A stretch of 25,297 bases of DNA from a virus. Where the stretch lies: positions 1 to 25,297 of IMG/VR virus record IMGVR_UViG_3300047300_000529. The stretch is one strand, 5' to 3'. The translations under genes were made by a program, and so were the position numbers. The notes beneath the pieces are model-generated. The model searched no databases, had not been told where the DNA came from, and was given only the letters and a program-made list of their open reading frames with translations. Within the stretch, counting starts at the first letter, position 1, and each line of letters begins with the position of its first letter. Shown one piece after another: positions 3,893 through 24,214 of this stretch.

Positions 3893-3978
3893 GCTTCAAT
3901 GGTGAAACTGGTATACACGCAAGGTTTAAGCCCTTGTTTTCAGTAATGAAAGTGAGAGTTCGACCCTCTCTTGAAGCA
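3893..3978 (+). tRNA. tRNA-Leu (anticodon UAA)
   Basis: This is a class II cloverleaf of 86 nt. Acceptor GCTTCAA (3893-3899) pairs with TTGAAGC (3971-3977), discriminator A3978. The anticodon stem CAAGG/CCTTG closes TTTAAGC with U33 followed by UAA. A long variable arm precedes a GAGAG-TTCGACC-CTCTC T arm. No CCA is encoded. It decodes TTA, the commonest Leu codon in the neighbouring genes. Confidence 0.93.
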
Positions 3979-3999
3979 CTAAAAAACAACTAAAAAATT

Positions 4000-4266
4000 A
4001 TGGATAACGGACAAGACACCCCAATGACACCAGCACTAGAACCACAAATGGAAAAAGTAGCTGAACCTAAAGAATGGAGACCTTCAAACAATGAAGCTCT
4101 TCGTGAGTTTGAAATCAACATTAGATTTTTAAGCAGAGGATGTGTTGTAAGAGTGGGATGCAAAGAGATTGCATTTGAAGATCACACTAATGCAATGGCT
4201 GCTATTAACAATTACGTTGCCAATCCTTGGGATGAACAACAAAAATGGCGTAAAATTTTAGACTAA
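4000..4266 (+). CDS. Unknown protein, 88 residues, coupled to the RyR gene
   Basis: The product begins MDNGQDTPMTPALEPQMEKV. Its first 35 residues are Pro/Glu-rich and probably disordered. A compact domain follows (residues about 36-75), with the pattern EFEINIRFLSRGCVVRVGCK then an acidic helix. The C terminus NPWDEQQKWRKILD is helical. Its TAA overlaps the next ATG (A4266 is shared), so it is translationally coupled to the RyR-domain protein and may act with it. No family is recognised. Confidence 0.75.
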   Translation: MDNGQDTPMTPALEPQMEKVAEPKEWRPSNNEALREFEINIRFLSRGCVVRVGCKEIAFEDHTNAMAAINNYVANPWDEQQKWRKILD

Positions 4267-4664
4267 TGAGTGGAACAGTAGAATTTAAAGGCACTCAAGA
4301 GGAATGGGAAGCTTTAAAAAAAGAAAACAGAATCAAATGGATTGCTTGTGTTTGTCACCAAGCAAATAAAGCATGGTGTGAATCTGAAGGAGATGATTCT
4401 CAAAAAGATTGGGCATTTGCAGAAGACTGGCAACGTGATTCAGCAATTAAAGGAGTTAAGTTCCGCTTAGAAAATCCTGATGCAGGACCAGATGCACAAC
4501 ACAATGTTTGGAGTGCAGATAAAATTGCTGATGGATGGGTCTATGGAAACGTTAAGGATGCTGAGAAAAAGACTCACCCTTGCTTAGTTCCATTTGACCA
4601 ATTACCTTTGTTCCAGCAGAAGAAAGACAAATTGTTTAGTGCTATTGTAGATGCACTAAAGTAA
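4266..4664 (+). CDS. RyR-domain protein, 132 residues
   Basis: Almost the whole product matches the prokaryotic/phage RyR-type domain. The N-terminal part shows IACVCHQANKAWCESEGDDS, then an EDWQRDSAIKGVKF helix and ENPDAGPDAQHNVW. The C-terminal RyR signature is DGWVYG.VKDAEKKTHPCLV, then PFDQLP and a final KKDKLFSAIVDAL helix. RyR domains are known from ryanodine receptors and, as stand-alone proteins, from phages and bacteria. There they are thought to recognise a ligand or a modified target, but their function is unproven. This short form has no membrane segment, so it is cytoplasmic. It is coupled to the 88-residue protein upstream and followed by the structured RNA island. Confidence 0.88.
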   Translation: MSGTVEFKGTQEEWEALKKENRIKWIACVCHQANKAWCESEGDDSQKDWAFAEDWQRDSAIKGVKFRLENPDAGPDAQHNVWSADKIADGWVYGNVKDAEKKTHPCLVPFDQLPLFQQKKDKLFSAIVDALK

Positions 4665-4766
4665 AGATCACCCCTGTGAATAGAATTCATAGGCCATGTA
4701 CCATTAAGCATACCGTAAGATCTGCCCGATGGTCATTTTGGTTACTAGGAATACATAACTAGTAAC
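4665..4766 (+). other. Non-coding structured segment after the RyR gene
   Basis: There is no ORF here. Visible pairings are TGAAT/ATTCA near 4677-4689, ACCAT (4700-4704) with ATGGT (4729-4733), and a perfect 8-bp hairpin GTTACTAG (4741-4748)/CTAGTAAC (4759-4766) with a 10-nt loop. A strong terminator-like hairpin follows immediately. Together these could form a small RNA or an attenuator leader. No known riboswitch or sRNA family is recognised. Confidence 0.4.
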
Positions 4767-4814
4767 AACCCCCAGTAAGCCTGTCTGGTCAACAGAAACT
4801 GCTGGGGTTTTTTA
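4767..4814 (+). terminator. Strong terminator-like hairpin with inner stem
   Basis: CCCCAG (4770-4775) pairs with CTGGGG (4802-4807), with flanking AA/TT. An inner stem CTGT/ACAG (4781-4784 with 4792-4795) lies within it. TTTTTT runs directly from the stem (4808-4813). If it terminates efficiently, the RNA elements downstream need their own promoter or antitermination. Confidence 0.6.
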
Positions 4815-4815
4815 T

Positions 4816-4903
4816 AGTCAGGTGGCGCACTTGAGCCAAACAGAGTTGGATGTGGGTTTTCGCACGCATTACGGCTGTTACAAGGTCATTCTTGTCCTGA
4901 CTA
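4816..4903 (+). ncRNA. tRNA-like element A, no anticodon arm seen
   Basis: AGTCAGG (4816-4822) pairs perfectly with CCTGACT (4896-4902), followed by A4903, as in an acceptor stem with discriminator. A T-arm-like hairpin ACAAG/CTTGT (4880-4884 with 4891-4895) abuts it, but its loop GTCATT has 6 nt and is not the usual TTCRANY. A D-arm-like GGC/GCC hairpin occurs at 4824-4837. Between them, AACAG (4839-4843) pairs with CTGTT (4875-4879) around 31 nt that contain a further hairpin with a TTTT loop. No 5-bp/7-nt anticodon arm was found. It may be a decayed tRNA, a tRNA-like RNA or a domain of a larger RNA. Confidence 0.45.
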
Positions 4904-4908
4904 CAAAG

Positions 4909-4988
4909 TGTTGTTCCCTTGAGAAAGGAATCATTGCTAATAAGAGGATAAATCTAATCCTACAACATTGAGGACTTCTCATCCTCAA
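4909..4988 (+). ncRNA. Structured segment between tRNA-like elements A and B
   Basis: TGTTGT (4909-4914) pairs with ACAACA (4962-4967). It encloses a TTCC..TT/AAGGAA hairpin and AGGAT/ATCCT (4945-4949 with 4957-4961, 7-nt loop AAATCTA, which lacks U33). A 7-bp hairpin TTGAGGA/TCCTCAA (4968-4974 with 4982-4988) follows. The stems suggest a folded RNA, but no family is recognised. Confidence 0.35.
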
Positions 4989-4992
4989 ACAT

Positions 4993-5093
4993 AGCACAGT
5001 GGCGGAATTATAGACGCACGCATGGCTCGGTAACACCGTGAAAAGAGCCTGTAATTAAGGTGTTACGTACAGGTGAAAATCCTGTCTGTGCTA
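4993..5093 (+). ncRNA. tRNA-like element B, tRNA-Leu-like D arm
   Basis: AGCACAG (4993-4999) pairs with CTGTGCT (5086-5092), discriminator A5093. The T-arm position has ACAGG/CCTGT, but its loop TGAAAAT is not canonical. The segment TGGCGGAATT.TAGACGC (5000-5017) closely resembles the D arm of bacterial tRNA-Leu. The middle has no ordinary anticodon arm. Instead GGCTC/GAGCC (5024-5028 with 5045-5049) and GTAACACC/GGTGTTAC (5030-5037 with 5059-5066) cross each other as a possible pseudoknot. A weak alternative is a loop TTAAGGTG reading AAG. The anticodon cannot be assigned. Confidence 0.5.
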
Positions 5094-5114
5094 CAACCCG
5101 TGAATGCTCATGTT

Positions 5115-5147
5115 GGTCCGAGTGAGATGAAAAACGGATATCGGACC
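5115..5147 (+). other. 7-bp hairpin between tRNA-like elements B and C
   Basis: GGTCCGA (5115-5121) pairs perfectly with TCGGACC (5141-5147) around a 19-nt loop. Part of that loop, CGGATA (5135-5140), could also pair with TATCCG (5171-5176) inside element C, so alternative folds are possible. Confidence 0.4.
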
Positions 5148-5154
5148 CCGTATT

Positions 5155-5246
5155 GGGTAGAGTGGCGTTATATCCGCATGGGCAACCCCCAACTATGTGA
5201 AATTCATAGACTTAGGAAATGCAGATTCGAATTCTGCCTCTACCCC
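5155..5246 (+). tRNA. tRNA-like element C, anticodon unassigned
   Basis: The T arm is textbook: GCAGA-TTCGAAT-TCTGC at 5221-5237. The acceptor GGTAGAG (5156-5162) pairs with CTCTACC (5238-5244) and can be extended by G5155-C5245. A short D arm GCG/CGC (5165-5167 with 5175-5177) has a 7-nt loop lacking the GG pair. CTATG/CATAG (5193-5197 with 5205-5209) could be the anticodon stem, but its loop TGAAATT lacks U33. Fifteen extra nucleotides, including a TGGG/CCCA hairpin, separate it from the D arm. It is either a divergent tRNA with an insertion or a tRNA-like RNA. Isotype unknown. Confidence 0.5.
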
Positions 5247-5249
5247 AAA

Positions 5250-5285
5250 GGCTAACCAATATTAGCCCTAACCAATGAGTGGTTA
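5250..5285 (+). other. Two adjacent hairpins downstream of element C
   Basis: GGCTAA (5250-5255) pairs with TTAGCC (5262-5267). TAACCA (5269-5274) pairs with TGGTTA (5280-5285), followed by AAATCTTTTT. They may form the 3' end or a processing site of the structured RNA transcript. Confidence 0.45.
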
Positions 5286-5312
5286 AAATCTTTTTCATAT
5301 CTGTATTACGTC

Positions 5313-5342
5313 AAAGGGAGGTATTGGACTCCCTTTTTCTTT
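5313..5342 (+). terminator. Rho-independent terminator closing the RNA region
   Basis: AAAGGGAG (5313-5320) pairs with CTCCCTTT (5329-5336) around an 8-nt loop, followed by TTCTTTTT. It separates the structured-RNA region from the protein gene at 5386. Confidence 0.8.
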
Positions 5343-5385: not shown

Positions 5386-5778
5386 ATGAGAAAAAGAATC
5401 ACTTCCACTGCTACTGTAGCAGAGAAAGTCTACTCCGTAAAGGAGGAGAAACCACAATTTAAATCTTTCAATCTTAAGGGAAGGTACTCAAGCTTAGATA
5501 AGCTAGATCGTATCCAAGAAAGAGAGATTAAAAGGATGTTCAAACACTTAACAGTTAAGTCTATGATTGATGAAAAGACTTACTTAAGAGGCTTAAGAGA
5601 ACTTCCTACTACTAAGCAAACTATTACCTTCATTAAAGAGATAATAGTACCTCAAGACTACGAAGTTATCCATGATGTTATTCTAGGCGACTTTAAGGTA
5701 GGTAAGAACTATTTAAAGACTTTTATAGAAGAGTCTGAAGTAGTAAACGTCATCAATTGGAAAGACGAAACAATCTAA
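5386..5778 (+). CDS. Unknown protein, 130 residues
   Basis: The product begins MRKRITSTATVAEKVYSVKE. The N-terminal 25 residues are basic and probably flexible. The middle is helical and charged (SLDKLDRIQEREIKRMFKHL). The C-terminal part looks alpha/beta and ends acidic. There is no signal peptide, transmembrane segment or recognised motif. It follows a terminator and an A/T-rich leader ending TAAATTAAATACAT, so it probably starts a new transcript. It is 16 nt upstream of the next gene, and both products are basic at the N terminus, so a shared nucleic-acid role is possible but unproven. Confidence 0.75.
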   Translation: MRKRITSTATVAEKVYSVKEEKPQFKSFNLKGRYSSLDKLDRIQEREIKRMFKHLTVKSMIDEKTYLRGLRELPTTKQTITFIKEIIVPQDYEVIHDVILGDFKVGKNYLKTFIEESEVVNVINWKDETI

Positions 5779-6343: not shown

Positions 6344-6844
6344 ATGTATTACAAACAAAATCAAGACCTTAGCTTTTCTAAAGCTCCCAACTATCAGAGA
6401 TATTTTCACATCTCTTTAACTATTAATGTTATCTTTGCACTACTATTGTGCTTATCTTTTATGTTTCCTGAACCAGAAGTTGTAACTAAGACTAAAGTGG
6501 TAAAAGAAGTTATCACTGAGAAAGATGTTGTCTTAACTGATTCAGGAATTACAGCAGAACTTACTAAGCAAGGAGTAATCCTAGCAGCAGTTGCTTGCTT
6601 ACAATCTAGAATTGAGAGTAACCACGGTAAGTCTAATGTAGGTATCCAAGCAAAGAATCTGTTTGGTATTACCTTTCATAGATGTAAGCATGTAGTAGGA
6701 AGACATGGTATCTATGCCAAGTACGACACTTACAGAGACAACATTAAGTGTTATGCTCACATCCAAAAGAGGTATCTTAAAAACATAGATGGTGTCTATG
6801 CAGAAGATCCCACCTACGTAACTAAGTTAAAAAGTTATAAATGA
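6344..6844 (+). CDS. Membrane-anchored GH73-type glucosaminidase, 166 residues
   Basis: A likely peptidoglycan hydrolase that cleaves glycan strands in the periplasm, as phage endolysins do. Residues 1-21 are cytoplasmic; residues 22-41 (HISLTINVIFALLLCLSFMF) form one transmembrane or signal-anchor helix. A Val/Lys-rich stalk follows, then a glucosaminidase domain from about residue 75. Key features are LQSRIESNHGKS with candidate catalytic Glu91, the NLFGI motif (105-109), and the downstream YAKYDTY and IKCYAHIQKRYL segments typical of the FlgJ/LytG-like fold. The domain is short and lacks a cell-wall-binding module. A signal-anchor-release design is an inference. The TGA overlaps the helicase ATG (ATGA at 6841-6844). 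No holin is visible next to it, so it may act in entry or envelope remodelling rather than lysis. Confidence 0.78.
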   Translation: MYYKQNQDLSFSKAPNYQRYFHISLTINVIFALLLCLSFMFPEPEVVTKTKVVKEVITEKDVVLTDSGITAELTKQGVILAAVACLQSRIESNHGKSNVGIQAKNLFGITFHRCKHVVGRHGIYAKYDTYRDNIKCYAHIQKRYLKNIDGVYAEDPTYVTKLKSYK

Positions 6845-7914
6845 TAACAAGAGATTTAATTCAACATCAAGCCCTTAAAGAGGCTTTACAGTTTAAAAGA
6901 AGTGGTTTACAATTAGCGACAGGTGCAGGTAAGACTAAGATAGGATTAGATTATATCAACGTCTTACCTAATCACCTGAAAGTTCTTGTAGTCGCTCCTA
7001 AAGTCGACATCTTTAAGTCTTGGACAGCAGATGCAGCTAAGTTTGAGGTTGCAGAACTTCTAGAGCGTATTACCTTCACTACCTATATTTCTCTCCCCAA
7101 GCATAATCCTGAGGAGTATGATATTGTTATTTTAGATGAAGCACACTCTCTTAAAGCAAGTGCTCTTCCATTCTTAAGAGGATATAAGGGAAGAATTTTA
7201 GGCTTAACAGGTACTCCTCCTAAGTATTTGACCTCAGAGAAAGGTCAGCTTATGATGGAATACTATCCTATTAAGTACGTATTCAAGACAGATAAAGCTG
7301 TAGAGAACGAAATCCTTAACGATTACCGTATCTATGTCCACTATTTAGATTTAAACAGAAATAAGACAATCAAGACTAAGCAAGGTTGGATGACTAGTGA
7401 AAGAGCTCAGTATGATTGGATTACTAGAGAGATAGAAAACGCTAACTCTAGAAACTTAATGTTTAAGACTATCCAAAGAATTAACTTCTTAAAACAGTTT
7501 GAGACTAAGGAACATTACGCTAAGAAACTTATCTCTGAGATCAACCAAGACGAGAAAGTTTTAATCTTTGCTAACACCATAGATCAAGCTGAAAGACTCT
7601 GTAAGGACTCTCACCATTCTAAGAACAAAAATAGTCCCTTAGAAGCGTTTAAAACAGGTGAAATCACTAAACTATCCTGTGTAGAGCAGTTAAGCGAAGG
7701 TATTAACATCCCTAATCTTAAAAATGCTATCATCTTACACTCTTATTCAGGAGGTTCTCCTAAGGCCCAACAGAAGTTTGGTCGACTTTTACGTCTTCCT
7801 ACAGACCAAACAGCTACTGTACATATTCTTTGTTACTCTAACACAGTAGATGAGAAGTGGGTAAGCGACAATCTTAAGAACTACGATCAAAACAAAATCA
7901 CACACTTAAAATAA
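6841..7914 (+). CDS. Superfamily 2 DNA/RNA helicase, 357 residues
   Basis: A compact two-RecA-domain helicase that would use ATP to remodel nucleic acid. Motifs in order: a Q-motif-like IQHQALKEAL near residue 10, Walker A ATGAGKT (26-32), motif Ia VVAPK, Walker B/DEAH box ILDEAH (97-102), and motif III LTGTP (122-126). The second domain has VLIFANTIDQAERL, motif V QLSEGINIPN and motif VI QQKFGRLLRLP with its arginine fingers. At 357 residues it is close to a bare helicase core, like phage UvsW-type or RAD3/ERCC3-like enzymes, which promote branch migration and recombination-dependent replication. No nuclease domain is fused. It is translationally coupled to the glucosaminidase gene upstream. 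Confidence 0.92.
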   Translation: MITRDLIQHQALKEALQFKRSGLQLATGAGKTKIGLDYINVLPNHLKVLVVAPKVDIFKSWTADAAKFEVAELLERITFTTYISLPKHNPEEYDIVILDEAHSLKASALPFLRGYKGRILGLTGTPPKYLTSEKGQLMMEYYPIKYVFKTDKAVENEILNDYRIYVHYLDLNRNKTIKTKQGWMTSERAQYDWITREIENANSRNLMFKTIQRINFLKQFETKEHYAKKLISEINQDEKVLIFANTIDQAERLCKDSHHSKNKNSPLEAFKTGEITKLSCVEQLSEGINIPNLKNAIILHSYSGGSPKAQQKFGRLLRLPTDQTATVHILCYSNTVDEKWVSDNLKNYDQNKITHLK

Positions 7915-10263: not shown

Positions 10264-11148
10264 ATGGTACTAAACTTAGCATACCCAGAAAAATCGCAGA
10301 TAAGATTTAGAGTAAGTAAATTTCCTGACGGTCAACAGTCTATCTGCATTCACACTCCTATAGATGAGAGGTGCAGTATTAAATCTAGATTAAACTCTTT
10401 TCAGGATTTAGAATTAATCATATGTGCAAATCAAGCTATTAAGTCCTTAGATCCTAGTATTAAAGTTAGTTTGTATGTTCCCTATTTTTTAGGAGCTCGT
10501 AGCGACAGACAATTTGAAGTAGGAGGGATTAACTATTTAAAACAAGTTATTTGTCCTATCATTAACAGTCAACACTTTAATGTAGTAAGCGTATTAGATC
10601 CACACTCAGACGTATTAGAAGCTTGTTTAAACAACTTTGTTCGCCCCAGCAACAACTTTGCCTTAGTTAGATATGCTTTAGAGGAAGATAAAATCAAAGG
10701 ACCTAATGCAGTATGTCTAGTTTCACCAGATGCTGGAGCATTAAAAAAAGTATTTAATGTTGCTAAACAATTTAAAATCGAAAATGTAGTAACTGCAGCT
10801 AAAGTTCGTGACTTAAAAACAGGTGAAATTATTAGGACTGAAGTACCTAATCTGCCTATCAGTACTACTGAAGAAGAACTAAAGTATGTGATTGTAGACG
10901 ACATTTGTGATGGAGGTAGAACATTTATTGAGTTAGCTAAAGCAATCAAAGAACAAAGACCAGAAGCTAAAATTTACTTAGTAGTAACTCATGGTATTTT
11001 TAGTGCTGGATTCGATTACCTAGTTCAATACTTAGATGGTATATACACAACAAACAGTGTAAAGGATATACAAGATGGTGGTATCGTTGACACATTCTCA
11101 AAACACAAAACAATCCACTCATTCGTTAAACAATTAAACGTATTTTAA
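10264..11148 (+). CDS. prs: Phosphoribosylpyrophosphate synthetase homologue (Prs or NARP1 Adps type), 294 residues
   Basis: A pyrophosphokinase of the PRPP-synthetase fold. It transfers pyrophosphate from ATP to ribose 5-phosphate or, in the NARP1 variant, to ADP-ribose. Seen: an ATP-binding GARSDRQFEVGG (77-88, like the YARQDR region of Prs), the LDPHSD motif with His114, flexible-loop KVRD (180-183), and the PRPP-binding signature VIVDDICDGGRTF (209-221), followed by THGIFSAGF. At 294 residues it is slightly shorter than cellular Prs (about 315). It starts after a strong terminator and an A/T-rich leader and precedes the NAMPT homologue by 16 nt, so the pair form one transcript. Whether the substrate is ribose 5-phosphate or ADP-ribose cannot be told from motifs alone. 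Confidence 0.92.
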   Translation: MVLNLAYPEKSQIRFRVSKFPDGQQSICIHTPIDERCSIKSRLNSFQDLELIICANQAIKSLDPSIKVSLYVPYFLGARSDRQFEVGGINYLKQVICPIINSQHFNVVSVLDPHSDVLEACLNNFVRPSNNFALVRYALEEDKIKGPNAVCLVSPDAGALKKVFNVAKQFKIENVVTAAKVRDLKTGEIIRTEVPNLPISTTEEELKYVIVDDICDGGRTFIELAKAIKEQRPEAKIYLVVTHGIFSAGFDYLVQYLDGIYTTNSVKDIQDGGIVDTFSKHKTIHSFVKQLNVF

Positions 11149-11164
11149 AAACATAAAAAATAAT

Positions 11165-12652
11165 ATGAACCCACTATTATTAACCGATGGCTACAAGGTA
11201 GGTCATCATCAACAGTACCCGAAAGGAACTACTTTAGTTTACTCTAATTTTACTCCTCGTTCAAACAAGTATGCTCCTAAAGGATGCGAAGAAGTAGTTG
11301 TCTTTGGAACACAAATGGTTATGCAACAATTGCATGAAGCATTCCAAGACAATTTCTTTACTAAACCTAAAGATCAAGTGTGCGGAGAGATGAAGCGTGA
11401 GCTCTCCCTGTATTTAAATACCGACTATGATGTATCTCATTTTGAAGCATTACATGACTTAGGCTATTTGCCTATTGAGGTTAAGGCACTAACAGAAGGT
11501 ACTAAAGTACCAATGAAGGTTCCTGTGTTAACTATCTACAATACACTACCTGAGTTTTATTGGATTACAAATTATCTTGAAACTATTTTGTCTAATCTGC
11601 TTTGGAAGCCAATGACTTCTGCTACCATTGCTCATCAATACAGAAAAGTATTGACTAAATGGATGGAGAAAACAGACATAGAAAGAGCATGGTTTATTGA
11701 TTGGCAAGGTCACGACTTCTCAATGAGAGGTATGGACTCAGTTGATGCTGTGATTAGTTCAGGATTAGGTCACTTAACTTCATTTTTAGGCTCAGATTCT
11801 TTGCCCACTATTTATGGTGCTGGAAAATACTATAATGAACAAGGAATGGTTTGTGGCAGTGTAAATGCAACCGAACACTCAGTAATGTGTGCTGGAGGTA
11901 AAGAAGATGAAGTAGAAACATTCCGTAGGTTGTTAGAAACATATCCTACAGGAATCTTATCTATTGTTTCAGACACTTGGGACTTGTGGAAAGTTTGTAC
12001 CGAGCATATAGTTACTCTTAAAGAAGAGATTATGGCTCGTGATGGTAAGTTAGTTATTCGTCCTGATTCAGGTGATCCTGTTGATATTCTTTGTGGTTTA
12101 AGTAAATCTGAATGGATTTTTGATATTATAGAACACAAAAAAGTTTATAGATCATCTGAAGCTATAAGAAAAGGAGTAATTGAACTTCTTTGGGATGTAT
12201 TTGGAGGAACAGTTAACGAACAAGGTTACAAAGTTCTCGATTCTCATATTGGAGCTATCTACGGTGATTCAATTACAATCGACAGAGCTGATGAAATTTG
12301 TAGACGTTTAGAGGCAAAAGGATTTGCTTCAACCAACGTAGTATTAGGTATAGGCTCATTTACGTACCAGTATAACACACGTGATTCATTTGGTTTTGCA
12401 ATGAAAGCAACTTACTGTGAGATTGATGGTGTAGGCAGAGAAATCTTTAAAGATCCTATCACAGATGACGGTACTAAAAAGTCAGCTACAGGTTTGTTGG
12501 CGGTATTCAAAAACGAGAATAACGGAAGCTACCAATTACACGATCGTTGTGATTGGGAAACTACAAAGAAAGGAGAACTTAAAACCATCTACAAAGAAGG
12601 AGAGTTCCACAACACTACTACACTCTCAGAAATTAGAGAACGTTTAAAATAA
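11165..12652 (+). CDS. nampt: Nicotinamide phosphoribosyltransferase homologue (NAMPT or NARP1 Namat type), 495 residues
   Basis: A full-length type II phosphoribosyltransferase that joins nicotinamide to PRPP, giving NMN, or in NARP1 to ADP-ribose pyrophosphate, giving NAD+ directly. Conserved regions include LLTDGYKVGHHQQYP (Asp8, Tyr10), DWQGHDFSMRG (179-189), SSGLGHLTSFLGSDSLPTI with Asp211, the catalytic TEHSVM (His238, equal to human His247), and IRPDSGDP with Arg299 and Asp301 (human Arg311 and Asp313). Length equals that of cellular NAMPT. It lies 16 nt after the Prs homologue and is followed by a hairpin. Phage copies help restore NAD+ during infection, either as general salvage or against NAD-depleting defences. 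Confidence 0.95.
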   Translation: MNPLLLTDGYKVGHHQQYPKGTTLVYSNFTPRSNKYAPKGCEEVVVFGTQMVMQQLHEAFQDNFFTKPKDQVCGEMKRELSLYLNTDYDVSHFEALHDLGYLPIEVKALTEGTKVPMKVPVLTIYNTLPEFYWITNYLETILSNLLWKPMTSATIAHQYRKVLTKWMEKTDIERAWFIDWQGHDFSMRGMDSVDAVISSGLGHLTSFLGSDSLPTIYGAGKYYNEQGMVCGSVNATEHSVMCAGGKEDEVETFRRLLETYPTGILSIVSDTWDLWKVCTEHIVTLKEEIMARDGKLVIRPDSGDPVDILCGLSKSEWIFDIIEHKKVYRSSEAIRKGVIELLWDVFGGTVNEQGYKVLDSHIGAIYGDSITIDRADEICRRLEAKGFASTNVVLGIGSFTYQYNTRDSFGFAMKATYCEIDGVGREIFKDPITDDGTKKSATGLLAVFKNENNGSYQLHDRCDWETTKKGELKTIYKEGEFHNTTTLSEIRERLK

Positions 12653-20386: not shown

Positions 20387-21343
20387 ATGGGAAAACTAAA
20401 TATAATCAACTACAAATTAGCTTATGACTACTACTTAGAGTGTAAAGACATAAACAAAGTTCAAAAACACTTTAAACATAGAAAAGAGTTAATTAGAAAA
20501 GAGTGGAGTAAGCTAGGATTAGAATATCCTATAAAAAGAATCTACAAAACGGGATACAATCTCCCTACCGGACCTAAAATTAACAAGTCTTTAGACGTAG
20601 ACTATTTTAAAATCATAGATACAGAAGCAAAAGCCTATTTTTTAGGACTAATTGCTGCTGATGGATGTATAAGAATAAAGAAAGATAAAATAAGTGGAAA
20701 CTCTTATGTTTTTTCTTTAGGTCTTCAGGAACAAGACAAGCATATACTTGATACTCTTGTTTTAGAGATCAAACATTCTATTGATTTAAAGTATTATAAA
20801 TCTAAAGAGGTTATTATTTCGTCTAATAAAAAAGTGTATCAGTCAACTCCTGCTTGGAGAATTGATGTACATAATAGACTATTTGTAGAAAATCTTTTTA
20901 ACCAAGGAATCCACCCTAGAAAAAGCACAGAAGGCTTTGGTAATCTCCAACTACCTGTAGAGTTAAGACCTCATTTTATAAGAGGATATTTTGACGGAGA
21001 TGGGTGTATTGGAGTGTATCAAAAAGCAGCAAGTCCTATCGTATATATGTGTAGTAAAACTACTGATATACTAGACTTAATACTTAGTTGGCTTCCAAAA
21101 GAAATTGGTACTTACTGTCGTATGAATTCTGCAGGAATAACTTACTTACATATAAAACGTAAGTCTGTTTTACCTTTTTGGGAATTCATAAAACCAGTTG
21201 ATTATAAATTAGCATTACAACGTAAATTAAATAAATTCGAGTTATTCAGGACCTATGTAGAGCGATCTACATACGCAAATTCTGTGAATTCGGGGAAAGG
21301 TGAGAATCCCAATCCCGAGCCAAGTGCAATAGAAATATTGTAA
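20387..21343 (+). CDS. LAGLIDADG homing endonuclease, 318 residues
   Basis: A site-specific DNA endonuclease expected to cut intronless copies of the peptidase gene and so spread the intron. Two LAGLIDADG motifs are visible: YFLGLIAADGCI (about residues 86-97) and HFIRGYFDGDGCIGV (about 197-211), so it can act as a monomer. The N-terminal 60 residues are basic and helical, like the DNA-binding add-on domains of such enzymes. The last 25 residues (from SVNSGKGENPNPEPSAIEIL) are encoded by the intron core and probably lie outside the fold. It starts from its own promoter within the intron and stops 10 nt before the P7 strand. Confidence 0.92.
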   Translation: MGKLNIINYKLAYDYYLECKDINKVQKHFKHRKELIRKEWSKLGLEYPIKRIYKTGYNLPTGPKINKSLDVDYFKIIDTEAKAYFLGLIAADGCIRIKKDKISGNSYVFSLGLQEQDKHILDTLVLEIKHSIDLKYYKSKEVIISSNKKVYQSTPAWRIDVHNRLFVENLFNQGIHPRKSTEGFGNLQLPVELRPHFIRGYFDGDGCIGVYQKAASPIVYMCSKTTDILDLILSWLPKEIGTYCRMNSAGITYLHIKRKSVLPFWEFIKPVDYKLALQRKLNKFELFRTYVERSTYANSVNSGKGENPNPEPSAIEIL

Positions 21344-21523
21344 AGGTGTAACGACTAGATAAAGTATTCTTAACAGGTGGTGCTGAAGAAGAAATATCCA
21401 CGAGCGCAGAATATCTTAGTTTTACTACCAAGTAATTATTCTAAGATAATGATATAGTCTGAACTTATACTAATAGGAAGTATAAGAACTAGGGAATAAA
21501 GAGTCCCTAGGATAACACAATTG

Positions 21524-23101: not shown

Positions 23102-24214
23102 ATGAGCTTTGAGAAAATCTTAGCTCAGATTGAGCACAATAAAACATTAAAAGAGACAGGAGGCTTAACTTCTATTCCTCCTCCATTTCCTCGCTTAGCT
23201 GAACACTACGGAGGGTTTACTAAGGGATCTATTACTTGTTTAACAGCTGCATCAGGTGTAGGTAAGTCAAAGTTTGCTAAATACATGACTATCTTAAACA
23301 TCTATAAGCAGGTTAGACTATCCAATAGTGGAATCAAACCTAAGATTTTCTATTTTGCTTTAGAAGAAAGTGCTACAGACTTTTGGCTGTCTTTTATATC
23401 TATCTATATGTATGAGAAATATAAGATAACAATAACTGTACAGCAACTTAAGTCTACTGGTAAGTTCACAGTAAACTCTGAGTTACTAGAAAAGATTAAG
23501 CAAGCAGAAACGTTCATTCAAAGATTAGAGGAGATTGTAGAGGTAATAGATTATATCAGGAATCCTACGGGTATTTCAAAGTACGTAAAAGCATTCTTTG
23601 AGAATCCAGAAGTAGGAGAGTACACCTACAAAGAGATAGAAGAAGGCAAGCGTATAGTATCGGGATATAAGTATAAGTCAGAAGATTTGTGGGTATTCTT
23701 TGTACTAGACCACATCAGTCTTCTATCTAATGAGGTTGCTCCTGATACTAAGATGAAGTTATCATCTTATCAAACCTTTGACTTTATGATTAAGGATTAT
23801 GTTCTTGACGTATTCTCTAAGCGTTACAAGATGGTTAATGTAATCGTACACCAACAAACCCCTGCATCAGAAAAACAAACCTACACCTACAAAGGTCAAC
23901 TTATGGAAGAGAAGTTAGAACCTTCAATGGAGGAACTTCACATCAATAAAGGTGTACACCAAGACTACGAGATAGTAATGGGTTTGTTTAGTCCTGCTAG
24001 ATACAACATAGCCACACACAACGGCTATGATGTATCATTACTAGGTAATAAATACAGATCCCTAAAGTTCTTAAAAGACCGATACTATGGCTTAGAAAAT
24101 TCAAGCATAGGACTTTACTTTAACGGAGCTAACGGAGAGTTTGATGAGTTACCTAGACCCCAAGAGATGAATAGCCCTACAGCTAGACATTATGAATCCT
24201 TTTTAAGTAGATAA
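23102..24214 (+). CDS. DnaB-like replicative helicase (RecA-fold ATPase), 370 residues
   Basis: A hexameric 5'-3' DNA helicase of the DnaB/gp41-like class is the best call. Motifs: Walker A TAASGVGKSK (about 48-57), the IFYFALEES segment typical of DnaB motif H1a, a Walker B-like strand WVFFVLDHISLLSNE, and NVIVHQQTPASEKQ, equivalent to the Q-rich H3/H4 region. C-terminal segments MEELHINKGVHQDYEIVMGL and SLKFLKDRYYGLENSSIGLY fit the KNR-type end of this fold (K.R.G). At 370 residues it lacks the N-terminal primase-interaction domain of cellular DnaB, as in many phage helicases. It lies in an operon with putative accessory and recombination ATPases. Confidence 0.85.
   Translation: MSFEKILAQIEHNKTLKETGGLTSIPPPFPRLAEHYGGFTKGSITCLTAASGVGKSKFAKYMTILNIYKQVRLSNSGIKPKIFYFALEESATDFWLSFISIYMYEKYKITITVQQLKSTGKFTVNSELLEKIKQAETFIQRLEEIVEVIDYIRNPTGISKYVKAFFENPEVGEYTYKEIEEGKRIVSGYKYKSEDLWVFFVLDHISLLSNEVAPDTKMKLSSYQTFDFMIKDYVLDVFSKRYKMVNVIVHQQTPASEKQTYTYKGQLMEEKLEPSMEELHINKGVHQDYEIVMGLFSPARYNIATHNGYDVSLLGNKYRSLKFLKDRYYGLENSSIGLYFNGANGEFDELPRPQEMNSPTARHYESFLSR

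Follow-up and report, generated by a model that had tools for sequence, protein, structure and literature searches.

Positions 1 to 25,297 of the IMG/VR virus record IMGVR_UViG_3300047300_000529, a stretch of 25,297 nucleotides (nt) referred to here as the window, include an island at 4665-5342 that lies between a gene for an RyR-domain protein (4266-4664, Pfam PF02026) and an unknown gene (5386-5778). The island holds three elements on the plus strand that resemble transfer RNA (tRNA) and, as the original prediction had stated, no credible protein gene; the sole listed open reading frame across the elements is a 60-amino-acid GTG frame. For a sequence of this composition the island has a low folding energy (z = -3.2, 20 shuffles); taken singly, the elements fold at z = -1.8 to -2.8. 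The ordinary tRNAs of the window are indeed the two already recognized, tRNA-Glu(TTC) at 331-403 and tRNA-Leu(TAA) at 3893-3979, both found by ARAGORN and Rfam on the plus strand, outside the island. The explanation favoured here, held with moderate confidence, is that the elements are members of an extensive family of tRNA-derived phage RNAs, mostly of leucine type, which would be matured and probably charged without decoding, and which would carry a central cargo domain.

The architecture first noted at 4816-4903, 4993-5093 and 5155-5246 is present in each case: seven of seven Watson-Crick acceptor pairs, a T stem of 5 base pairs (bp) and a D arm starting with TGGCG. A pattern that requires TGGCG and, for the acceptor, seven Watson-Crick pairs with a T arm next to it has exactly three matches in the window and none in 200 both-strand surrogates. 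In element 1 (acceptor 4816-4822/4896-4902, A73 at 4903), the interior comprises a D-like stem, a central stem AACAG..CTGTT with an inner hairpin, and a T stem with a 6-nt loop, GTCATT; the elbow consensus has been lost from both the T loop and the D loop. Element 2 (acceptor 4993-4999/5086-5092, A73 at 5093) shows a D arm at 5002-5017, a central stem at 5024-5028/5045-5049 and a T arm at 5069-5085 with the loop TGAAAAT, together with a predicted 8-bp pseudoknot helix (5030-5037/5059-5066). Element 3, whose acceptor (5156-5162/5238-5244) is prolonged by an eighth, G-C pair (5155/5245), consists of a D arm (5165-5177), hairpins at 5179-5191 and 5193-5209, and a T arm (5221-5237) with the canonical loop TTCGAAT.

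All three are without an anticodon arm of 5 bp and 7 nt that has U33 where it should be, which agrees with the original prediction. A hairpin of 5 bp and 7 nt exists in element 3 (5193-5209, loop TGAAATT), but it is out of place, with G instead of U33. The extra length said to replace the arm is also present, although it is slightly smaller than the 15 to 30 nt claimed: with the discriminator, the elements measure 88, 101 and 90 nt, about 12-25 nt over a standard tRNA. The tRNA covariance-model check did not yield three ordinary tRNAs: ARAGORN, run on the window, reports no tRNA in the island, and Rfam at E<=10 gives no tRNA match there and none at any family's gathering score.

Elements of the same build have been found repeatedly in IMG/VR. 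Through the flanking RyR protein, 26 loci were reached (loci are cited below by numbers beginning with L), several of which have, at the same site, tRNAs along with elements built as AGTCAGG-TGGCGNAA..GTANACGC-centre-ACAGGTTCGAATCCTGT-CCTGACT-AC. A pattern scan for the 5' part of the element retrieved at least 120 IMG/VR stretches, from which a script extracted 156 distinct TGGCG elements initially and 169 AGTCAGG-like ones after adding loci; when IMG/VR was scanned with the T arm of element 2, nothing matched. The relatives range from 71 to about 180 nt, have ordinary tRNA genes nearby, and form arrays in some loci (seven elements in L042, five in L103). The pattern also occurs in seven GTDB contigs, all in metagenome bins, which are probably phage DNA. 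Cultured-phage DNA searched with the island, one complete element and two long relatives contained no full element. No host tRNA with an AGTCAGG acceptor was found in 197 genomes from the family of one bin, where three matches were chance-like and controls matched too.

Covariance model R1 was built from 26 relatives, with the window excluded and the structure restricted to the acceptor, D and T stems. On the window it scores 45.6 bits at 4993-5092 (element 2, E 4e-8), 43.5 at 5156-5244 (element 3, E 1e-7), 38.2 at the tRNA-Leu and 26.5 at 4816-4902 (element 1, E 6e-4), the next match being 12.5; by this score, elements 2 and 3 are closer to the relatives than the ordinary tRNA-Leu is. On the loci fetched via the RyR and 5386 proteins, R1 gives 25 matches, ordinary tRNA-Leu included. 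Sought in related phages, covariation is seen in the acceptor and T stems of the R1 alignment, and in the family A described below. Double changes occur in 12 of the 15 pairs of the R1 alignment (7/7 in the acceptor, 4/5 in the T stem) and 0/500 shuffles reach its score, a result that is partly circular because the rows were gathered by a scan requiring pairing. In the alignment of a second group, family B (12 rows), variation in the centre is too small to test its helices. The D-T elbow bases (D-loop GG, T-loop TTC) are present in most relatives; element 3 has them in the T loop only, and elements 1 and 2 in neither.

In most relatives, the determinants known for bacterial leucine tRNA are retained. 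In the AGTCAGG/AGTTAGG set, A73 is found in 90% of the elements, A14 in 96%, A15 in 96%, U48 in 89% and TTC in 96%, with the D-loop GG mostly kept; A73, A14, A15-U48 and the D-T contacts are present together in 102 of 168 elements and are incomplete in those of the window. Bacterial leucine identity involves A73, tertiary D-T contacts, A20a and a large variable region, and leucylation has been achieved by minimal variants with A73 and D-T contacts, the anticodon arm being dispensable for charging (PMC9976931). At the 3' boundary (N73, C74), the elements are the same as the neighbouring ordinary tRNAs: C74 is encoded in 165/168 elements and in 108/108 of those tRNAs, and CCA is mostly not encoded in either. 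Judged from these bases, typical members probably undergo tRNA-type maturation and leucylation; this reading is weaker for the window, in which elements 1 and 2 are without the elbow bases and element 3 is without A73.

While the shell is strongly conserved among the relatives, the centre is hypervariable; 132 of 154 centres are left once those sharing a 12-mer have been dropped. An anticodon arm with U33 and at least 4/5 bp appears in 39 of 156 TGGCG elements, against 28 expected when the centre is shuffled. Compared with shuffled sequence, the centres have the better folds (mean z -0.80, p 6e-12) and are rich in perfect helices, with 40 of at least 7 bp (12 expected) and 14 of at least 8 bp (2.5 expected); helices of at least 7 bp abut the T arm in 19 cases, against 5.7 expected. 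Pseudoknots arranged as in element 2 are predicted for 21 of 121 centres, against 9 in shuffles, so about half of these predictions may be due to chance.

Where a centre recurs, the entire element is 77-98% identical (69% in one pair), while the 400-nt flanks mostly share little or nothing; in L051/L271, L113/L138 and L075/L112 the flanks are shared too, and these are simply close relatives. Recurring elements often differ by compensatory changes, for example within the variable arm of L085/L145, the acceptor of L162/L233, and also in L043/L085. A case of exchange may be visible at the window's own site. The RyR protein of L002, the nearest relative, is 98% identical to that of the window, and the similarity between both stretches spans 4660 to 4825 and ends inside element 1, beyond which L002 has a different centre and an HNH-like gene; this break looks like a cassette exchange at the shell. 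In L002, by eye, the HNH-endonuclease-like gene (6559-7230) lies inside a tRNA-like element near the 3' acceptor half, and part of the acceptor end is repeated downstream.

Comparison among the loci shows a scaffold constrained through covariation, centres that as a group are folded, and entire elements kept as cassettes where the surroundings are unrelated. Many relatives, covarying stems and conserved cassettes support one of the possibilities raised originally, a new class of expanded tRNA-like RNAs. In the mechanism proposed, the acceptor stem, the D and T arms and a tRNA-like 3' boundary would be retained, while the anticodon arm and the variable region would have been replaced by a hypervariable folded domain made of helices, predicted pseudoknots and, at times, an extra hairpin in the D loop. 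The island would be transcribed as a single unit, from which host tRNA-processing enzymes would excise the elements. Leucyl-tRNA synthetase (LeuRS), which does not need the anticodon, would then charge typical members, giving rise to stable RNAs unable to decode. The least certain steps concern the central domain, to which a role is ascribed because it is conserved in the cassettes: it may be the working part, shown and shielded by the tRNA shell as in a natural tRNA scaffold, and it would probably bind a host protein or RNA during infection.

More tentatively, the elements could make up a natural tRNA-scaffold display system of interchangeable, non-decoding and probably aminoacylated cassettes in phages of mainly aquatic bacteria, each with a different folded RNA; the cassettes would be swapped as conserved shells recombine, and would be directed against a variety of host targets.

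Several observations weigh against the family of charged, cargo-bearing RNAs. Elements 1 and 2 have neither the D-loop GG nor the TTC T loop used in LeuRS recognition, and element 3, despite its canonical T loop, is without the D-loop GG as well as A73. The centres of elements 1-3 have no relatives among the IMG/VR loci compared. A k-mer search found no motif common to all centres beyond a mild excess, and matches of the centres elsewhere in the same locus, for which at most about 15 kb per phage was compared, were at chance level; consequently, no target is in sight. A guide or antisense role of the centres was rejected on these chance-level matches to the surrounding phage DNA. The exact acceptor AGTCAGG in the relative set is a product of the search pattern. 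Finally, in the close relatives L028-L033 the island has been reduced to an acceptor-like hairpin, a stub which indicates that it is dispensable there.

Among the other explanations, the elements could be decoys, whose activity lies in the shell (acceptor end and elbow): it would sequester host factors, or defence enzymes with tRNA ends as their substrate, while the centre only blocks decoding. A conserved shell around a hypervariable centre and the retention of leucine determinants without an anticodon speak for such a role. However, the centres are folded, are conserved in cassettes to the degree given above, many of them in unrelated flanks, and the insert of family A covaries strongly; a pure decoy needs none of this, and the explanation is considered unlikely.

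It is rather improbable that the elements are decayed tRNA genes, functionless remnants in a fast-changing tRNA cluster. The loss of D-T elbow bases in elements 1 and 2, the hairpin stub in L028-L033 and the rapid turnover of content at the site (L002, L003 and L004) would fit decay, whereas the perfect 7-bp acceptor and 5-bp T stems of all three window elements, the compensatory changes in relatives and the recurrence of the same centres in unrelated contexts would not. Decay, also contemplated originally, is therefore not favoured for the family overall, but it may apply to element 1, whose T and D loops are without the elbow consensus.

Very little probability is given to intron-bearing tRNAs, whose extra sequence would be spliced out to leave a normal anticodon loop. 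Stems of at least 7 bp directly after the D arm are found in 16 elements, against 5.5 in shuffles, and one L002 element bears the HNH-like gene. Yet U33 is not enriched at the 5-bp-stem position (26/80), no motif is common to the inserts, and these are far below the size of a group I intron; the corresponding Rfam model RF00028 has no match in the relative loci scanned and, in the window, finds only an unrelated intron at 21233 and none in the elements. Slightly less credible still is a role as punctuation, in which the tRNA-like folds would do no more than let RNase P and RNase Z cut, and so free structured spacers or upstream mRNAs: the spacers are partly structured and partly conserved, but a cutting signal does not need a variable centre, and relatives recur beside unrelated neighbours. 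The dense structure over 680 nt and the location near tRNAs would suit the suggestion that the elements are domains within a single big ornate RNA of GOLLD/ROOL type, but this is hardly tenable, given that Rfam finds no match even at E<=10 and that the elements are self-contained, modular units of about 90 nt, found singly in unrelated surroundings, and not one 600-nt fold.

Compared with known systems, the proposed tRNA-derived family resembles class II tRNA-Leu (RF00005), with which typical relatives share the three arms (acceptor, D and T), A14/A15-U48, A73 and a large variable region; RF00005 gives several relatives about 27-44 bits, and the relatives are in part recognized as tRNA. Unlike tRNA-Leu, the elements are without a U33 anticodon arm, their central insert is very variable in length, and the three of the window fall below ARAGORN and Rfam detection. 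Engineered tRNA scaffolds for recombinant RNA reportedly hold a foreign RNA in the place of the anticodon arm inside a tRNA shell; the phage elements differ in being natural and in having more than 100 different inserts. The stable RNAs C and D of phage T4, which have no known function, likewise come from within a cluster of tRNA genes. The Bacillus cereus pseudo-tRNA tRNAOther is reported to be a tRNA-like RNA without a role in translation (PMC3399842). Transfer-messenger RNA (tmRNA, RF00023) resembles the elements in its tRNA-like ends, the absence of an anticodon, an inserted domain and, for some elements, predicted pseudoknots, but the elements mostly keep the D stem (GCG/CGC in 118/168), are mostly shorter than 150 nt and have U3-A70 (AGTCAGG elements) or C3-G70 (AGCACAG) in place of G3-U70. 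On these features, and with no Rfam match in the elements, a tmRNA identity was rejected. As for tRNAOther, it is said to be one bacterial RNA, as opposed to a diverse phage family with central inserts.

A related group, family A, was gathered by a 16-nt motif in the insert, with 5' ends placed by requiring at least 6/7 acceptor pairs. It comprises 22 distinct RNAs of 141-160 nt (for example L117 836-992, L294 7383-7523 and L315 707-865), in which 27 of 40 pairs show double changes and 97.7% of cells are paired, with 0/500 shuffles reaching any measure; the acceptor helix is partly circular because its pairing set the 5' ends, while the insert helices are not. This makes family A stronger evidence of constraint than the R1 alignment. 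In these RNAs the anticodon place is occupied by a GTC-containing 7-nt loop, often without U33; they also have G73, a variable arm of about 70 nt holding AATATGGGTTGACCAC, and in most cases a D-loop hairpin. The GTC anticodon and G73 are aspartate determinants (PMC9976931). By its predicted structure, family A is an expanded tRNA-Asp-like relative and not an anticodon-less RNA. Its member L117 is not listed by Rfam at E<=0.5.

The rest of the island, also on the plus strand, is structured to varying degrees. A leader of three hairpins at 4665-4770 (fold z = -3.55) includes GCATACCGTAAGATCTGC at 4708-4725, an 18-nt conserved loop found in at least 119 IMG/VR stretches (L008, L024, L028-L033, L255 and L257 among others); it is closed by a 6-9 bp stem in about half of the distinct cases, often with a T run following. 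The GCATACCGTAAGATCTGC hairpin is, by its predicted form, terminator-like with a large conserved loop, and mostly independent of the elements, an AGTCAGG element being also present in 12 of 130 loci. Directly 5' of element 1, at about 4770-4813, lies a putative terminator-like stem CCCCAGTA...TGCTGGGG with a T run (fold z = -2.3). The spacer at 4904-4992 is structured, and its 3' part (4960-4994) is common to L004; the next one has a hairpin GGTCCGA...TCGGACC at 5115-5147, although the spacer fold z is only -1.0. A terminator-like hairpin with a T tail (5313-5336) forms the 3' end of the island.

Other features accompany the elements in the relatives. The D loop offers another point of insertion, behind GGCGGAA, which carries its own hairpin in L039, L081, L089, L098, L103, L125 and L127, and similar hairpins recur there across different elements. 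By eye, a GGTGAC(A/G)-hairpin with the loop GAAAGA stands directly upstream of elements in L024 (about 1665-1700 and 2080-2110), L009 (about 690), L042 and L094. The freshwater-1 RNA (RF02979) is found near tRNA genes in L030 (5687-5748) and L008 (4383-4444), and a true tmRNA gene (L103, 5724-6218) lies in the viral contig that has many tRNAs and five tRNA-like elements. Elsewhere in the window, a phosphoribosyl pyrophosphate (PRPP)-synthetase-like gene followed by a nicotinamide phosphoribosyltransferase-like gene (10264-12652) presumably resembles the phage NAD+ reconstitution operon NARP1. An endonuclease frame (phrog_4645, 20387-21480) overlaps the group I intron (21233-21480, 74.7 bits, Rfam), apparently splitting a neighbouring gene. 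The DnaB-like helicase (23102-24214) is 29% identical to those of crAss-like phages, a likeness that hints at a Bacteroidota host.

No description of such an RNA family was found in the open-access literature, subscription papers and bioRxiv preprints being mostly outside the search, and the analysis suggests that the RNAs riding in a tRNA shell constitute a previously undescribed family. Annotation programs miss such RNAs or call them tRNAs, so that tRNA clusters would conceal many phage RNAs of this kind. If the proposal is true, viruses use the tRNA fold, as engineers do, as a stable and processable carrier for other RNAs. It would also give a concrete reason for phage 'tRNAs' without a sensible anticodon, and provide over a hundred new RNA domains for testing in anti-defence or regulatory roles.
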